Assembly (NCBI GenBank): GCA_008933015.1
Contig: WBXH01000008.1
Span: forward strand, 1 to 37,105
Length of the DNA stretch: 37,105 nt
Direction: 5' to 3'
DNA from: Verrucomicrobiota bacterium
GTDB taxonomy: Bacteria > Verrucomicrobiota > Verrucomicrobiia > Chthoniobacterales > UBA6821
The notes beneath the pieces were generated by a model. That model saw nothing but the letters and a program-made list of their open reading frames with translations. It was not told the DNA's origin and ran no database searches. The position numbers and the translations under genes were made by a program. Shown here one piece after another: positions 17,785-37,105 of this stretch. Every line of letters starts with the position of its first letter. Positions within the stretch are counted from its first letter, which is position 1.

Positions 17785-18429
17785 ATGGATGATGCCCCGC
17801 TTGTTTTTGCGAATCGTGTCCTGCTAAAGAAGTGTCTCGATTCGGGGCGCCTGCTGATAGGTCAGGTCTTGCTCGGAACGGACTATTCGCTTCGTCATGC
17901 CGATGATGCGGATCGTTATGATCTGACACCCTACTCGGTCTCATCCGGTGCGCGTCTAATAGCCCGTTATGATGATGAAGGGAACTTTCGCCCTCTTAAG
18001 ACGGCACCAAACCTTCGGCGAGGATGGCTGATCAGGGCCGCTTCCCTGGAGGAGATGGAACTCGCTCTGGAGCATCTTTATCCATCGGCACTCGGATTAT
18101 GGAATGCTTTCCTGACAAAGAATCTCCATGCCACGAGTATGCGGGAAACGCTAGACCGGCAGACCGGCATGTACCGCATCACCCAACTTCTTACCCCGCT
18201 CCAAGCAGGTGAACTAGTCGCCCGTTGCTGTCGTTCCGATGGAGGATGCCTGCGCTCGATTCTTTGGGGTCTTGCTCCGGCCGAACCGATCACATCACTC
18301 CCCGAATCCAAGCTGTCGCTTGAATCGCTACCCGCCGGGAGAATACCCCTGATTTGCCGCGAATTGTGCAATCTGGTCGTTGCAGCAGCTCGCCCCATCG
18401 CGAAGGGCAACCTTCCGAAAAAAGAGTAG
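17785..18429 (+). CDS. Probable DR2241-like [4Fe-4S]-binding protein
   Basis: A 214-residue protein with five clustered cysteines: C148, C149 and C155 in ARCCRSDGGCLRSILW, and C191 and C195 in PLICRELCNLVVAAAR. This spacing and the surrounding residues resemble the Fe-S domain of the Deinococcus DR2241 family, where that domain is joined to a CbiX-like chelatase domain. Here only the Fe-S part and an N-terminal segment exist. Family identification is from memory of motifs and not confirmed. It starts 18 bp after atpC and ends 7 bp before the amidohydrolase ATG, so it is part of a tight gene run. The specific substrate is unknown. Confidence 0.6.
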   Translation: MDDAPLVFANRVLLKKCLDSGRLLIGQVLLGTDYSLRHADDADRYDLTPYSVSSGARLIARYDDEGNFRPLKTAPNLRRGWLIRAASLEEMELALEHLYPSALGLWNAFLTKNLHATSMRETLDRQTGMYRITQLLTPLQAGELVARCCRSDGGCLRSILWGLAPAEPITSLPESKLSLESLPAGRIPLICRELCNLVVAAARPIAKGNLPKKE

Positions 18430-18436
18430 AATCGAA

Positions 18437-19678
18437 ATGTCCGCCCCAGTTGCCACGCGCCTCTACAGGGGAAGGTGTCTCCTGCCCATGACTGGTTCGG
18501 CCATCGATGACGGCGGTTTGGCGGTTCGTGGGAGCGAGGTCATATCCGTCGGTTCTTGGCGTGAATTAACGACCGAGCACTTCGGGGCAGTCAAAGAAGA
18601 CCTTGGCGAAGTCATCATCATGCCGGGCCTTATCAATGCCCACTGCCACCTTGATTACACCATAATGAGAGGGGCACTGTTCGGAGACGGAGCCTTCTCG
18701 GCATGGATTCAGAGGCTCAACGCCATGAGGAGATCGCTCGATCAGAGTGATTATCTAGATTCCATCGCTCTGGGGTTGAGTGAATTACAAAAGTGGGGAT
18801 GTACCACGGTCTTGAATATTGAGTCGTTCCCTGAACTGTTTCCCTTTCTTCCCGAATCCAGGATCAGGGTCTGGTGGTTTCTTGAAGTGATGGATGTTCG
18901 GAGCAGATTGAATTCCGCGGAAGCCCTCGCCGGGGCCATACACTTCTTTGAAAAGGCGGGGGAGAGCAGGGGAGGGTTTGGCATTTCCCCCCATGCACCT
19001 TATACGGTTTCCCGTGATCTCTATGAATTGTCAGCCCTGTACGCTTATAAATACAGGATCCCGCTCTGTACGCATCTGGCGGAATCAATGGAAGAGACGG
19101 AGATGTTTGTCCGTGGAGAGGGCCCCCTTTATGAGTTCCTCCGATCGATCGGGCGGCAGATGGATGATTGCCGGGGCCTCACTCCGATCCGAATGCTGCT
19201 CGGTTCTCCGTTGCTTCCGAAAGGTAGTATTCTTGTTCACATGAACCACCTTGGGGCGGGAGATCGGGAACTTCTCAAGGCATTGGCCGGACATTATCAC
19301 GTGGTTCATTGTCCCAGAACCCATGCATTTTTTCATCGCGAGCCCTTTGAACTGAGATTCTTTCAGGAGTCTAGAATCCCCCTTCTTCTAGGCACCGACA
19401 GCCTGGCAAGCAATGAGGACCTCAACATGTTCGCCGAGATGAGGGCCATGTCGGACGCCTTTCCTGAACTTGATCCGGCCGAACTCATGCTGATGGCAAC
19501 CAAGAATCCCGCCGCTGCAATAGGTCGTGCTGGAAGATTGGGGGAGCTCTCGCCCGGGACCATTGCCGATTTTATCGCGGTTCGAGATCAAGGAGGGGTG
19601 GGGAGCCCCTGCGAGCGAGCACTCGCCAATACCCTGCCTCCGCAGGTATGGATTTCAGGTCACCATGAAGAAGTCTAA
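18437..19678 (+). CDS. Amidohydrolase-superfamily deaminase/chlorohydrolase (MqnX/TrzA-like)
   Basis: A 413-residue metal-dependent hydrolase. It shows NAHCHLDYT (HxH metal ligands), CTHLAES with the third His and a catalytic-type Glu, VHCPRTHAFF, and LGTDSLASNEDL with the final Asp. This pattern is the TrzA/AtzA/cytosine-deaminase-like group that includes aminodeoxyfutalosine deaminase (menaquinone synthesis). The exact substrate cannot be read from sequence. ATG 18437 is chosen because it follows the previous stop by 7 bp and begins just before RLYRGRCLLPMTG; an overlapping upstream start at 18380 is unlikely. The next gene overlaps its 3' end by 14 bp. Confidence 0.8.
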   Translation: MSAPVATRLYRGRCLLPMTGSAIDDGGLAVRGSEVISVGSWRELTTEHFGAVKEDLGEVIIMPGLINAHCHLDYTIMRGALFGDGAFSAWIQRLNAMRRSLDQSDYLDSIALGLSELQKWGCTTVLNIESFPELFPFLPESRIRVWWFLEVMDVRSRLNSAEALAGAIHFFEKAGESRGGFGISPHAPYTVSRDLYELSALYAYKYRIPLCTHLAESMEETEMFVRGEGPLYEFLRSIGRQMDDCRGLTPIRMLLGSPLLPKGSILVHMNHLGAGDRELLKALAGHYHVVHCPRTHAFFHREPFELRFFQESRIPLLLGTDSLASNEDLNMFAEMRAMSDAFPELDPAELMLMATKNPAAAIGRAGRLGELSPGTIADFIAVRDQGGVGSPCERALANTLPPQVWISGHHEEV

Positions 19679-34404: not shown

Positions 34405-35505
34405 TTATTCAGGATTCATTGTTTTTAACCACTGCCTGTAGATCACGGGGGAAATCTCGGACGGCTTGATCTCGCTCCGCCCCCCCCAGAAGACATTGGT
34501 ATAGAGGAGAGGGATCCCGGCCTCCTGAAGGTGGCTGTCCATGGCCGCCTTGTGCTCAAGCACTCGCTCCTTATCGGTTCCGTGGGCCACACCCATGATG
34601 TTCACATTGTTGAATTCCGGCCCCCCCTCGCGCCAGTAGCAGTGGGTCATGATGTCGTGACGTCCGATTTCCGCACCCGCCTCCGCCTCTCGGCCAGCCG
34701 GTACCGCCCAGTGGAAGAGGGCATTGAAGCGCGTGACGCGCACACCGGTCGACGAGGGCTTCACATGCTCCAGAAAGGTGGAGAAGCGCCCCAGTAATTT
34801 TCGCTCAAGAAAGGATCTGGCCACCGAATAGAACTCGTCAGGCGAAACGCCCGCCGCCTCGGCCCGCCTCAGCCAGGGAAAGGAAGTGATCTCATCAGGG
34901 GCGAACTCGCGCTTGAGTTCCAGAAGAACGCGCCATTCCAGATTGCTCAGATGAACAACAGCTGGAGTCATCATGGTCGCCGGTGCCTCGGAGCGCTCAC
35001 CTGGCTGCGAACTCTTCCTACGGACATGACCGACGCCGAGAGTGAAGATCCCCTTCGCCTGCATCATGCGGTAGGAGTCGGCTCCGATCCTTCGCGCAAG
35101 CAGTTCGCAATGGTCGGTGAGAGAGAATCCCGCAGGTACTTTGAGGGTCGTCCAGAGGCGGAAGGCTCCTCCCTGGATACGGGCATCCGTGGAGCGAACA
35201 ACAACATGGCCGGAGAAGGGATCCTCCTTAAAGAGGAAATCAAAGGCGGCTTCGAGTTTCTCCTCGGGCACACGCCAAGCGACCAGCCCCCCCTCGGCGA
35301 GATTATTGGTAATAAGAGTCTGCCGGACACGACGGATTGTGCCAGCCTCAAGCATCGCACGAATACGGTGCAACACCATCTCCAGAGATTGACCGGAACG
35401 CTCCGCCACGATGGCGAACGGATCCTCATGGAAACCCTCGATCTTGTCCTCGGAGATCGCAAGGATGGAGGCATTGACCGGATCGTTGTGCTCGGTGGGA
35501 ATCAT
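34405..35505 (-). CDS. Fused AhbA/AhbB (NirD/L-like) siroheme-decarboxylase-type protein, Lrp/AsnC fold
   Basis: A 366-residue protein made of two similar halves. Each half has a winged helix-turn-helix followed by an AsnC-like beta domain: the first has IRRVRQTLITNNLAEGGLVAWRVP (about 57-80), the second LGRFSTFLEHVKPSSTGVRVTRFNALFHWAVP. The C-terminal half has a THCYWREGGPEFNNVNIMGVAHG motif, equivalent to the SHCYxR...N.F.MVHG of AhbB. AhbA/B and NirDLGH decarboxylate siroheme in alternative heme or heme d1 synthesis. A plain Lrp-type regulator is the alternative. The gene holds three G runs (8, 7 and 7) on its coding strand. No other heme gene is nearby. Confidence 0.7.
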   Translation of the reverse strand: MIPTEHNDPVNASILAISEDKIEGFHEDPFAIVAERSGQSLEMVLHRIRAMLEAGTIRRVRQTLITNNLAEGGLVAWRVPEEKLEAAFDFLFKEDPFSGHVVVRSTDARIQGGAFRLWTTLKVPAGFSLTDHCELLARRIGADSYRMMQAKGIFTLGVGHVRRKSSQPGERSEAPATMMTPAVVHLSNLEWRVLLELKREFAPDEITSFPWLRRAEAAGVSPDEFYSVARSFLERKLLGRFSTFLEHVKPSSTGVRVTRFNALFHWAVPAGREAEAGAEIGRHDIMTHCYWREGGPEFNNVNIMGVAHGTDKERVLEHKAAMDSHLQEAGIPLLYTNVFWGGRSEIKPSEISPVIYRQWLKTMNPE

Positions 35506-35570: not shown

Positions 35571-36731
35571 TTAGCCCTTGATCGCTTCCGAGAGAATCTC
35601 GATCACACGGTCGATCTCGGCGGCGGTATTGTAAAAATGAGGGCTAAATCGAAGCCAGAATCCGTGATCACGCGTCTTCCTGTAGGAGGCAGAGATGGAC
35701 GCCTTCTGGAGGTCTGCATAGAGATTGGCGGGATCCTTCGAGGGATGACGTGTGGTCAGGATGCCAGAGCGGAGCGGTTCATGACTCATTGGTGAGAGAA
35801 ACTCGAAGCCATGCCTAGCAAGTCCTGATTCCAACTGGTCCCGTCGCTCAAGAATCAACGATGAGACCGTCTCGAGACCCTGCTCGGCAATCAGGTTGAT
35901 CGAAGCCCTCATCCCGTAGATCCCAGCGACATTCAGCACACCTGGTTCATAACGCCTTCCCCCTTCCTCAAACTCGATCACCGGTTGGGCCAGAAAGTCG
36001 GGTGACTTGATATTCCAGGATCCGAGCAGGGTGGGGCGGCATTCTGCAAAGCGATCCTTGGACACATAGACAATCCCTGCGGCAAGAGGTCCCAGGAGCC
36101 ACTTGTGAGCATCGGCTGAGAGGAAATCGACATGTTCCACCGGCGTGGGGAAGGCCCCCAGTGTCTGAATCGCATCGAGTGAAAAAAGAATCCCCTTCTC
36201 CTTGAGCATGCTGCCGATCGCCGTGATATCGATCCGCCATCCGGTCTGGAAGTGACAGGAGGCCAAGGCCACGAGACGGGTGGAGGGAGTCAAGGATGCC
36301 TCCACATCGGCCATGGTGATTTTTCCAAGCAGTTCTGTTTTGAGCCATTTGACAACGACCCCACGGTGCTGAAGATTCAGCCACGGGTAGACATTGGCCG
36401 GATAATCGTCGGCGTATACCACCACCTCATCTCCCACTTTCCAGTCGATCCCGTTGGCAAATAGGCTGATTCCGAGCGAGGTCGGCCCCAGCAGGGCAAT
36501 CTCGTCAGCCTCAGCCCCGATCAGAGCAGCAGCATCCCTTCGTGTCAGGCTGATCTCCTTGAGAACCCCGTCGAACTCCTGCTGATCCTGTGAGCTTGAA
36601 TCGATATACTCCTTCATCGCCCGGGCCGAACTGGCTGGGAGCGCCGTGACTCCCGCATGCCCAAGGAAGATCCGCTTTCTGGCGACGGGAAAGGACTCGA
36701 GGCGATCGCTCCGGCCTGCGGAAAGGTTCAT
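35571..36731 (-). CDS. Class V PLP-dependent aminotransferase (cysteine-desulfurase/isopenicillin-epimerase-like)
   Basis: A 386-residue fold-type I PLP enzyme. The Schiff-base lysine lies in SADAHKWLLGPLAAGI, preceded by the cofactor-binding Asp in LFSLDAIQTLGA and ALASCHFQTGWR. Phe/His/Gly near LGPTSLGISLFA contact the phosphate. It lacks a clear mobile-loop Cys typical of NifS/SufS, so it may be an aminotransferase or a lyase rather than a desulfurase; the substrate is unknown. Its ATG overlaps the stop of the RelE-like gene by one base (TAATG), implying cotranslation. Confidence 0.82.
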   Translation of the reverse strand: MNLSAGRSDRLESFPVARKRIFLGHAGVTALPASSARAMKEYIDSSSQDQQEFDGVLKEISLTRRDAAALIGAEADEIALLGPTSLGISLFANGIDWKVGDEVVVYADDYPANVYPWLNLQHRGVVVKWLKTELLGKITMADVEASLTPSTRLVALASCHFQTGWRIDITAIGSMLKEKGILFSLDAIQTLGAFPTPVEHVDFLSADAHKWLLGPLAAGIVYVSKDRFAECRPTLLGSWNIKSPDFLAQPVIEFEEGGRRYEPGVLNVAGIYGMRASINLIAEQGLETVSSLILERRDQLESGLARHGFEFLSPMSHEPLRSGILTTRHPSKDPANLYADLQKASISASYRKTRDHGFWLRFSPHFYNTAAEIDRVIEILSEAIKG

Positions 36732-37105
36732 TAGCGAGTCTCCTGCGCGGGTGCCGGTTCGTGGAGCATTTTCCAGAATTGGTCGGTATTCTCCATGCCG
36801 TCTGTCTGATCGTCATCGGTCATCGGAAGCTTCGACCGGAAAAGGAAATCCCGAATCGTGTTCTTATGGAGGACGCGGTGGATGAGGATCCCTTCGGCAT
36901 GACGCTCAAAGTAGATGCGGTGATCGCTGCTGCGGAATCTGTGGAGCGTCCGCCCGTCGCGCTGGATCTTGCTGAAGCTCTCTCCTTCCAGAGAGTTGAG
37001 ATCGTCCGGCATGACCTGGAACTCGGAGAGTAGGTCGAGTTGGAGATCTTTCGGGAGGGCGCTCATTTCCGCCGCACTGATGGGATTGAAGATGACTTGG
37101 AACAC
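36731..37105 (-). CDS. RelE/ParE-superfamily-like protein (possibly cut by window edge)
   Basis: A 124-codon frame open to the last base of the window. The first codon in view is GTG at the edge, which may be a start or an internal codon. The core GESFSKIQRDGRTLHRFRSSDHRIYFERHAEGILIHRVLHKNTIRDFLFRSKLP has the beta-strand and basic pattern of RelE/ParE toxins (RxxxxxxYRIxFxx...I.HVxHKxxxY). No antitoxin gene is in the window, and the single-base overlap with an aminotransferase gene and the acidic tail suggest a housekeeping member rather than an active toxin. Function unknown. Confidence 0.65.
   Translation of the reverse strand: MFQVIFNPISAAEMSALPKDLQLDLLSEFQVMPDDLNSLEGESFSKIQRDGRTLHRFRSSDHRIYFERHAEGILIHRVLHKNTIRDFLFRSKLPMTDDDQTDGMENTDQFWKMLHEPAPAQETR

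Follow-up and report, generated by a model that had tools for sequence, protein, structure and literature searches.

The protein encoded at positions 34405–35505 of the window, the whole stretch of 37,105 nucleotides analysed here, is very probably a single-chain siroheme decarboxylase acting in a siroheme-to-heme b route that ends in ChdC and replaces HemE, HemN, HemY and HemH. Gene content, co-distribution, one operon, the fold of the protein and a motif were observed and form the basis of this assignment, from which we infer the substrate, the product and the order of the steps. The features of the window are as follows.

34405–35505, minus strand: fused NirDL/AhbA-AhbB-like siroheme decarboxylase homologue, 366 amino acids, ATG start (Pfam, NCBIfam, structure model)
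34630–34644, minus strand: HXYXR motif of the C-terminal half (H288-C-Y290-W-R292), aligned with H261/Y263/R265 of 4ch7
35194–35208, minus strand: degenerate counterpart in the N-terminal half, HXVXR (H100-V-V102-V-R104), which aligns with H93/Y95/R97 of 4ch7
35571–36731, minus strand: class V aminotransferase/cysteine-desulfurase-like neighbour (Pfam, NCBIfam), probably outside the system
17785–18429, plus strand: DR2241-like Fe-S protein, 214 amino acids (PF18069 and PF18009), candidate accessory of the same pathway
18380–19678, plus strand: amidohydrolase directly behind the DR2241-like gene, a pair that recurs in related families

Domains, fold and active site of the window protein

The Pfam family PF17805 (AsnC_trans_reg2) matches two stretches of the 366-residue protein (3.5e-18; 66 bits, cut-off 27), and PF22451 (NirdL-like_HTH) matches it once (1.1e-6; 28.5 bits, cut-off 27). 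Residues 25–158 match the NCBIfam AhbA model with 48.3 bits, below its cut-off of 140, and residues 206–335 score best with the AhbB model at 82.3 bits, below its cut-off of 125, so that these models would not name the window protein. Both models match all 38 members of the family alignment (A2) at 1e-5 or better. The best solved structure by sequence is the fused NirDL of Hydrogenobacter thermophilus (2.3e-14; source organism as given in PMC4835899).

A structure model of the window protein was built from the same 38 sequences (mean pLDDT 86, pTM 0.78). In the model each half consists of helices followed by a four-strand domain, and the tandem halves, each with a helix-turn-helix-like segment and an AsnC-like domain, form one barrel, as is characteristic of the superfamily. 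Superposition on NirDL entry 4ch7 gives a Z score of 26.3 over 301 residues (3.4 Å, 24% identity). The two NirDL entries score 26.3 and 25.9 over approximately 300 residues, all other chains score 9.1 or less, an AhbB chain scores 8.6, and Foldseek agrees with NirDL as the match. Chains titled as Lrp/FFRP regulators are also listed, well below NirDL, with Z scores of at most 8.7 (75 residues) or 8.5 (146 residues). An initial sequence-only reading had proposed a single-chain AhbA-AhbB (NirDL)-like protein, with an Lrp regulator as the alternative; the Pfam matches, the NCBIfam matches of the two halves and a structural similarity to NirDL far above that to any Lrp regulator bear this proposal out. 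Its description of each half as a winged helix plus an AsnC-like domain is in line with the helical segment and four-strand domain of each half in the model and, for the AsnC-like domain, with the two PF17805 matches; the helical family PF22451 was recognised in one place.

The HXYXR motif is complete in the C-terminal half (H288, Y290, R292), and the N-terminal half keeps the histidine and arginine with valine in place of tyrosine (H100, V102, R104); all six residues are invariant in the 38 sequences. The siroheme decarboxylase motif previously written as HCY...VAHG corresponds to H288-C-Y290-W-R292...H308-G309 and stood up to this comparison, H308 and G309 being invariant in the 38 sequences as well. 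A conserved HXYXR motif was described by Palmer et al. (2014), and the R102A substitution in Desulfovibrio desulfuricans AhbB abolished activity (PMC4145669). Siroheme decarboxylases are also described as having a histidine on strand 2 in both barrel halves (PMC4835899). In the model H100 lies in strand 98–103 and H288 in strand 288–295, and these are probably the two histidines described elsewhere as essential. The NirDL-like protein is very conserved; at locus L020 its identity to the window protein is 69.6%, compared with 64.8% for PrfA.

The window protein resembles NirDL of H. thermophilus (4ch7, 4czc) in being a single chain of two similar halves with a shared fold over about 300 residues, and in retaining both strand-2 histidines and the C-terminal HXYXR. 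It differs from 4ch7 in its low identity (24%), in the change of the N-terminal HXYXR to HXVXR, in seven residues inserted ahead of strand 3 in the N-terminal half of the barrel, and in a C-terminal segment, FWGGRSEIKPSEISP, that is invariant in its family (38 sequences).

Heme genes in the genomes of Chthoniobacterales

Of the 97 genomes examined from the order, 73 have a NirDL-like match, far more than chance would give, among them the window's own genome (G000), which is 84.7% complete. The matches are mostly full-length open frames with 61–96% identity; a few are split or cut by contig ends, and G063 was counted as positive from a fragment of 45 residues at the end of a contig. A pattern search for relatives returned at least 582 hits, of which at least 554 were confirmed and the best 80 kept; among these 80, Haloferula luteola and Akkermansiaceae MAGs carry a homologue (65–67%). 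Chthoniobacter flavus Ellin428 has one as well (L102:10001–11089). No match to the NirDL-like protein was found on plasmids.

ChdC (PF06778 over the cut-off) is present in 73 of the 97 genomes. PF06778, the Pfam family of ChdC, also includes chlorite dismutases; the G000 protein scores 238 bits with the NCBIfam heme synthase model, below its cut-off of 253. Associations with NirDL were evaluated over the 97 genomes by permuting NirDL labels inside genera in 20,000 runs. NirDL and ChdC occur together in 69 genomes, NirDL only in 4, ChdC only in 4 and neither in 20 (Fisher 3e-13), a degree of association reached in none of the shuffles. For AKR, scored present at E 1e-40 or better, the corresponding counts are 58, 15, 2 and 22, reached in 2 of 20,000 shuffles. 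For DR2241 they are 68, 5, 11 and 13 (Fisher 2e-6), reached in 7,500 shuffles; a strict tie of DR2241 to NirDL was therefore rejected, the association being present overall but not significant within genera. The control, sulfite/nitrite reductase, shows no association (54, 19, 19 and 5; 10,860 shuffles). These numbers are indicative, because only five genera are mixed (g1, g2, g8, g17 and g22), the presence and absence sets were set by hand from search tables, and absences in draft genomes may be gaps.

The classical genes alternate with this set. HemH (ferrochelatase) is present in 14 of the 97 genomes, and HemE-type URO-D above 360 bits in the same 14 (counting G003, where HemE is split over two contigs). 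We take the remaining URO-D hits, the highest of which has 302 bits (G095), to be paralogues. Several URO-D-like matches each occur in G031, G032, G049, G052 and G095, which have no HemH, and are probably not HemE; five of those in G095 lie on one contig. In the window's genus, 11 genomes have NirDL and ChdC and no HemE or HemH, and 5 show the reverse; neither HemH nor HemE-type URO-D was matched in G000 or its 10 NirDL-bearing congeners. Across the order, no HemH match was found in 69 of the 73 NirDL-bearing genomes. NirDL and HemH occur together in 4 (G023, G029, G048 and G091, with both gene sets), NirDL only in 69, HemH only in 10 and neither in 14, an exclusion reached in 5 of 20,000 within-genus shuffles. 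Four of the 14 genomes with neither (G020, G021, G044 and G084) have ChdC, so that their lack of NirDL and HemH perhaps reflects assembly gaps. In G014 (L155) HemE and HemH are clustered with HemN-type, amine-oxidase (HemY-like), ResB, CcsA, HemA, HemC and SUMT/HemD genes.

The siroheme branch is represented by SUMT, with one match over the cut-off in G000 (4.6e-85) and matches over the cut-off in 90 of the 97 genomes, and by a CbiX/SirB-type chelatase of predicted iron specificity in 95 of 97, G000 included. A complete classical pathway without siroheme genes, which would have spoken against the sequence-only reading, was thus not found in G000: HemE and HemH are absent, and SUMT and CbiX are present. 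For a Met8/CysG-type precorrin-2 dehydrogenase, the best listed PF13241 match across the 97 genomes is 31.5 bits. In G000, in the symbiont Xiphinematobacter (G028) and in its sister G038, all PF13241 matches were checked (three, two and two, respectively); each proved to be HemA, MurD-like or S-adenosylhomocysteine hydrolase, none being of the Met8/SirC type.

The absence of a classical AhbC from G000 (best match 8.7e-5) had not been foreseen. None of the 97 genomes exceeds the AhbC cut-off, and G028 and G038 have no match at 1e-3. AhbC-like proteins above 300 bits, a threshold chosen in this analysis (weaker matches of 120 bits in G069, 99.5 in G043 and 77 in G086 were not counted), occur in 12 of the 97 genomes, all NirDL-bearing; 61 of the 73 NirDL-bearing genomes are thus without one. 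The AhbC/NirJ1-like loci are L111–L116 and L158:7022–9228, most with an adjacent second radical SAM gene. The NirDL-bearing genomes of at least 90% completeness that lack ChdC (G052, G087 and G095) each have an AhbC-like protein and an adjacent second radical SAM gene. Both AKR and DR2241 are absent from 4 of the 73 NirDL-bearing genomes: G052, G082 and G095, which have AhbC-like proteins, and G006 (87% complete). This pattern fits replacement of AhbC by AKR and/or DR2241, with few independent cases. Residues 256, 259 and 337 of the NirDL-like protein, conserved elsewhere, are changed in G052 and G095, but these belong to one genus and the changes are not evidence that the protein is altered where AhbC is present.

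On contig C298 of G090 (L145), ResB, CcsA, NirDL, ChdC, AKR, HemC and SUMT/HemD lie on one strand; this genome has 9% contamination, and further copies of NirDL, ChdC and AKR lie elsewhere in it, so the contig may derive from another, related organism. Among 80 loci, the commonest neighbour clusters of the NirDL gene (31, 30, 30, 28, 25 and 23 loci) include no heme-like gene and by inspection resemble NadC, a HAD hydrolase, BirA, a 5'-3' exonuclease, a GYF-like and a TrpD-like protein. The class V aminotransferase, earlier taken as a hint of pathway context, adjoins the NirDL gene in 10 of 30 loci (1.5 kb flanks), all from the window's genus. The adjacency is therefore real in the window and its genus, and the aminotransferase was rejected as a conserved partner because it is not a neighbour outside that genus. 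A small protein at 36731–37105 of the window (minus strand), RelE/ParE-like by inspection and without a Pfam match, likewise adjoins NirDL, both in the window's genus and in g2.

The DR2241-like Fe-S protein earlier recognised in the window is confirmed by PF18009 and PF18069, approximately 16 kb from the NirDL gene, and four cysteines are conserved in the 6 sequences compared. It matches residues 294–462 of the 474 of Deinococcus radiodurans DR2241 (2jh3). The CbiX and DR2241 parts are one gene in 2jh3 and two genes in Chthoniobacterales, where relatives encode CbiX beside the DR2241-like gene. We take 2jh3, an entry titled otherwise, to be DR2241, with the CbiX part in front. The DR2241-amidohydrolase pair (window 17785–19678) is seen from the window to Xiphinematobacter. 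AKR is divergent from CbiX-DR2241-amidohydrolase in G029, G040 and G048, which belong to other families, and lies near DR2241 by coordinates in further genomes. The control genome of Deinobacterium chartae matches ChdC, DR2241-type Fer4_23, CbiX, SUMT and COX1, with no HemE or HemH match, which over these genes is the same signature as in the NirDL-bearing Verrucomicrobia.

The proposed route and competing readings

In the proposed route, uroporphyrinogen III would be converted to precorrin-2 by SUMT fused to HemD, and precorrin-2 to siroheme with the CbiX-type chelatase. The NirDL-like protein would then convert siroheme to 12,18-didecarboxysiroheme, removing CO2 from the ring C and D acetates inside the barrel of its two AsnC-like domains. 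By homology, the C-terminal His-Tyr-Arg would make up the complete active site, and a second His/Arg set, lacking the tyrosine, would come from the N-terminal half. Removal of the ring A and B acetates would give coproheme, with AKR as the leading candidate, perhaps together with the DR2241-like Fe-S protein, and ChdC would convert coproheme to heme b, its described role in heme synthesis (PMC7242693). The lack of an AhbC-like protein in 61 of the 73 NirDL-bearing genomes, and of a precorrin-2 dehydrogenase in G000, G028 and G038, leaves gaps in this route. We suggest tentatively, as an idea with slightly less than an even chance, that aerobic Verrucomicrobia use a new non-radical-SAM system in place of AhbC to take off the ring A and B acetates, and that this is most likely AKR, possibly helped by the DR2241-type protein. 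AKR keeps the Asp-Tyr-Lys-His residues of its family. It was not detected in 10 of the 61 NirDL-bearing genomes without an AhbC-like protein, and had no hit in G000, perhaps through incompleteness. AKR is unlikely to be a general precorrin-2 dehydrogenase, because genomes with HemH only and NIR_SIR are without it.

Xiphinematobacter (CP012665; 915,884 bp) keeps HemA, HemC, SUMT/HemD, CbiX, DR2241, NirDL, AKR, ChdC and COX1, with a class III aminotransferase read as HemL, and has no match at 1e-3 to HemE, HemH, NIR_SIR or AhbC-type proteins. Between G028 and G038 the dN/dS (NG86) is 0.10 for NirDL, 0.09 for AKR, 0.15 for ChdC and 0.08 for both the SUMT and the HemD domain, with DNA ligase (0.16) as a yardstick; the gene set is under purifying selection in these 0.9-Mb symbionts. 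Given no NIR_SIR and a single SUMT-profile match, the retention of SUMT is best explained by siroheme as a heme precursor. The same observations weigh against a reading, in itself unlikely, in which uroporphyrin III would receive its iron from CbiX and lose all four acetate carboxyls through the NirDL-like protein, directly giving coproheme for conversion to heme by ChdC; heme synthesis would then have no need of SUMT, precorrin-2 dehydrogenase or AhbC. Such a route would account for the missing AhbC and Met8 together, and NirDL was crystallised with an iron-uroporphyrin III analogue (4czc, entry title). However, it leaves SUMT conserved in closed symbiont genomes that lack a NIR_SIR match and, with one SUMT-profile match each, have no cobalamin-type methylases, and the 12 genomes with AhbC-like proteins carry the same NirDL-like protein.

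The siroheme-to-heme b route was also weighed against heme import. COX1 is present in 45 of 47 chosen genomes, Chthoniobacter flavus and H. luteola included (no hit in G095 or in the incomplete G000), and indicates that most of these organisms need heme. Five genomes, G039, G045, G047, G073 and G092 (family f13, genus g8), have COX1 and no match to NirDL, ChdC or HemH, and uptake or another heme source therefore probably exists in the order. It is nevertheless quite improbable that the species with NirDL and without HemH import heme and that the cluster is a remnant or serves siroheme only: the whole set is under purifying selection in 0.9-Mb symbionts without NIR_SIR, and ChdC would be left without a substrate.

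The sequence-only reading had hinted at an alternative heme or heme d1-like pathway. A siroheme-based route is supported, with heme b a more probable product than heme d1 because ChdC accompanies NirDL and because NirDL belongs, at one locus, to an operon of heme and cytochrome c genes. Didecarboxysiroheme is also a heme d1 precursor (PMC7242693). In G061 (L158), the one such genome scanned in this way, the AhbC-like protein fits the NirJ1 model (495 bits) slightly better than the AhbC model (465 bits), both under the cut-off; the protein beside it exceeds the TIGR04053 cut-off and also resembles AhbD. A pathway to heme d1 or another siroheme-derived cofactor instead of heme b is nonetheless very unlikely, considering that 61 of the 73 NirDL-bearing genomes have no AhbC/NirJ-type protein above 300 bits, that NirDL is tightly linked to ChdC and shares a locus with cytochrome c assembly genes, and that most genomes searched for COX1 have it and so need heme, the NirDL-bearing ones mostly without HemE and HemH. 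That the protein is a heme- or siroheme-sensing Lrp/AsnC regulator of heme genes is hardly credible: both halves have helical N-terminal segments, one recognised as NirDL-like HTH, and AhbA/B shares the Lrp/AsnC architecture, with DNA binding not excluded by its authors (PMC4145669), but the fold is far closer to NirDL than to any regulator, the catalytic His-Tyr-Arg is invariant, and in the window's genus absence of the gene coincides with the other heme gene set.

Known systems and biological meaning

The window protein shares its predicted reaction with AhbA/AhbB of Desulfovibrio and Methanosarcina, and each of its halves matches the corresponding NCBIfam model; it differs in being fused and under the cut-offs, and in occurring mostly in genomes without an AhbC-like protein. 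In Haloferax volcanii a hybrid route has been described, with AhbA, AhbB and AhbC followed by ChdC/PitA in air and by AhbD without air (PMC5746218, PMC8305020), and the route proposed here likewise joins a siroheme branch to ChdC. In our control genome searches a DR2241-type Fer4_23 domain and CbiX were matched in Haloferax as well. Haloferax is described as having AhbC and a SirC dehydrogenase, whereas most NirDL-bearing Chthoniobacterales have no AhbC-like protein above 300 bits, and the three genomes checked for a Met8/SirC type yielded none.

The siroheme-based heme route has been described for archaea and sulfate reducers (PMC11306076), and a 2021 paper calls it specific to archaea (PMC8529089). 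By titles and the beginnings of abstracts, no report of the route in Verrucomicrobia was found in the open-access literature searched, nor was an Ahb/ChdC form without AhbC found in print there. The Ahb-to-ChdC hybrid is thus already known in haloarchaea, and the form without AhbC appears to be new.

According to Brown et al. (2015; PMC4607532), Xiphinematobacter seems enriched in heme biosynthesis yet lacks hemD, hemE, hemY and hemH; hemD, hemY and hemH are unannotated in C. flavus too, and diverged analogs could exist. The gene set described here answers this gap: HemD occurs as a fusion with SUMT, and the other missing enzymes have NirDL, CbiX and ChdC in their place. A siroheme route with one undiscovered step would explain heme synthesis in the nematode symbiont in the absence of the usual enzymes, and a short list of genes is left for that missing tetrapyrrole step. 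The finding would extend the siroheme heme route from archaea and sulfate reducers into Verrucomicrobia, where both heme routes alternate inside single genera. If the ring A and B acetates are indeed removed without AhbC, the route would represent a fourth arrangement of heme biosynthesis, used by free-living Verrucomicrobia and a nematode symbiont, and perhaps by Deinococcota.
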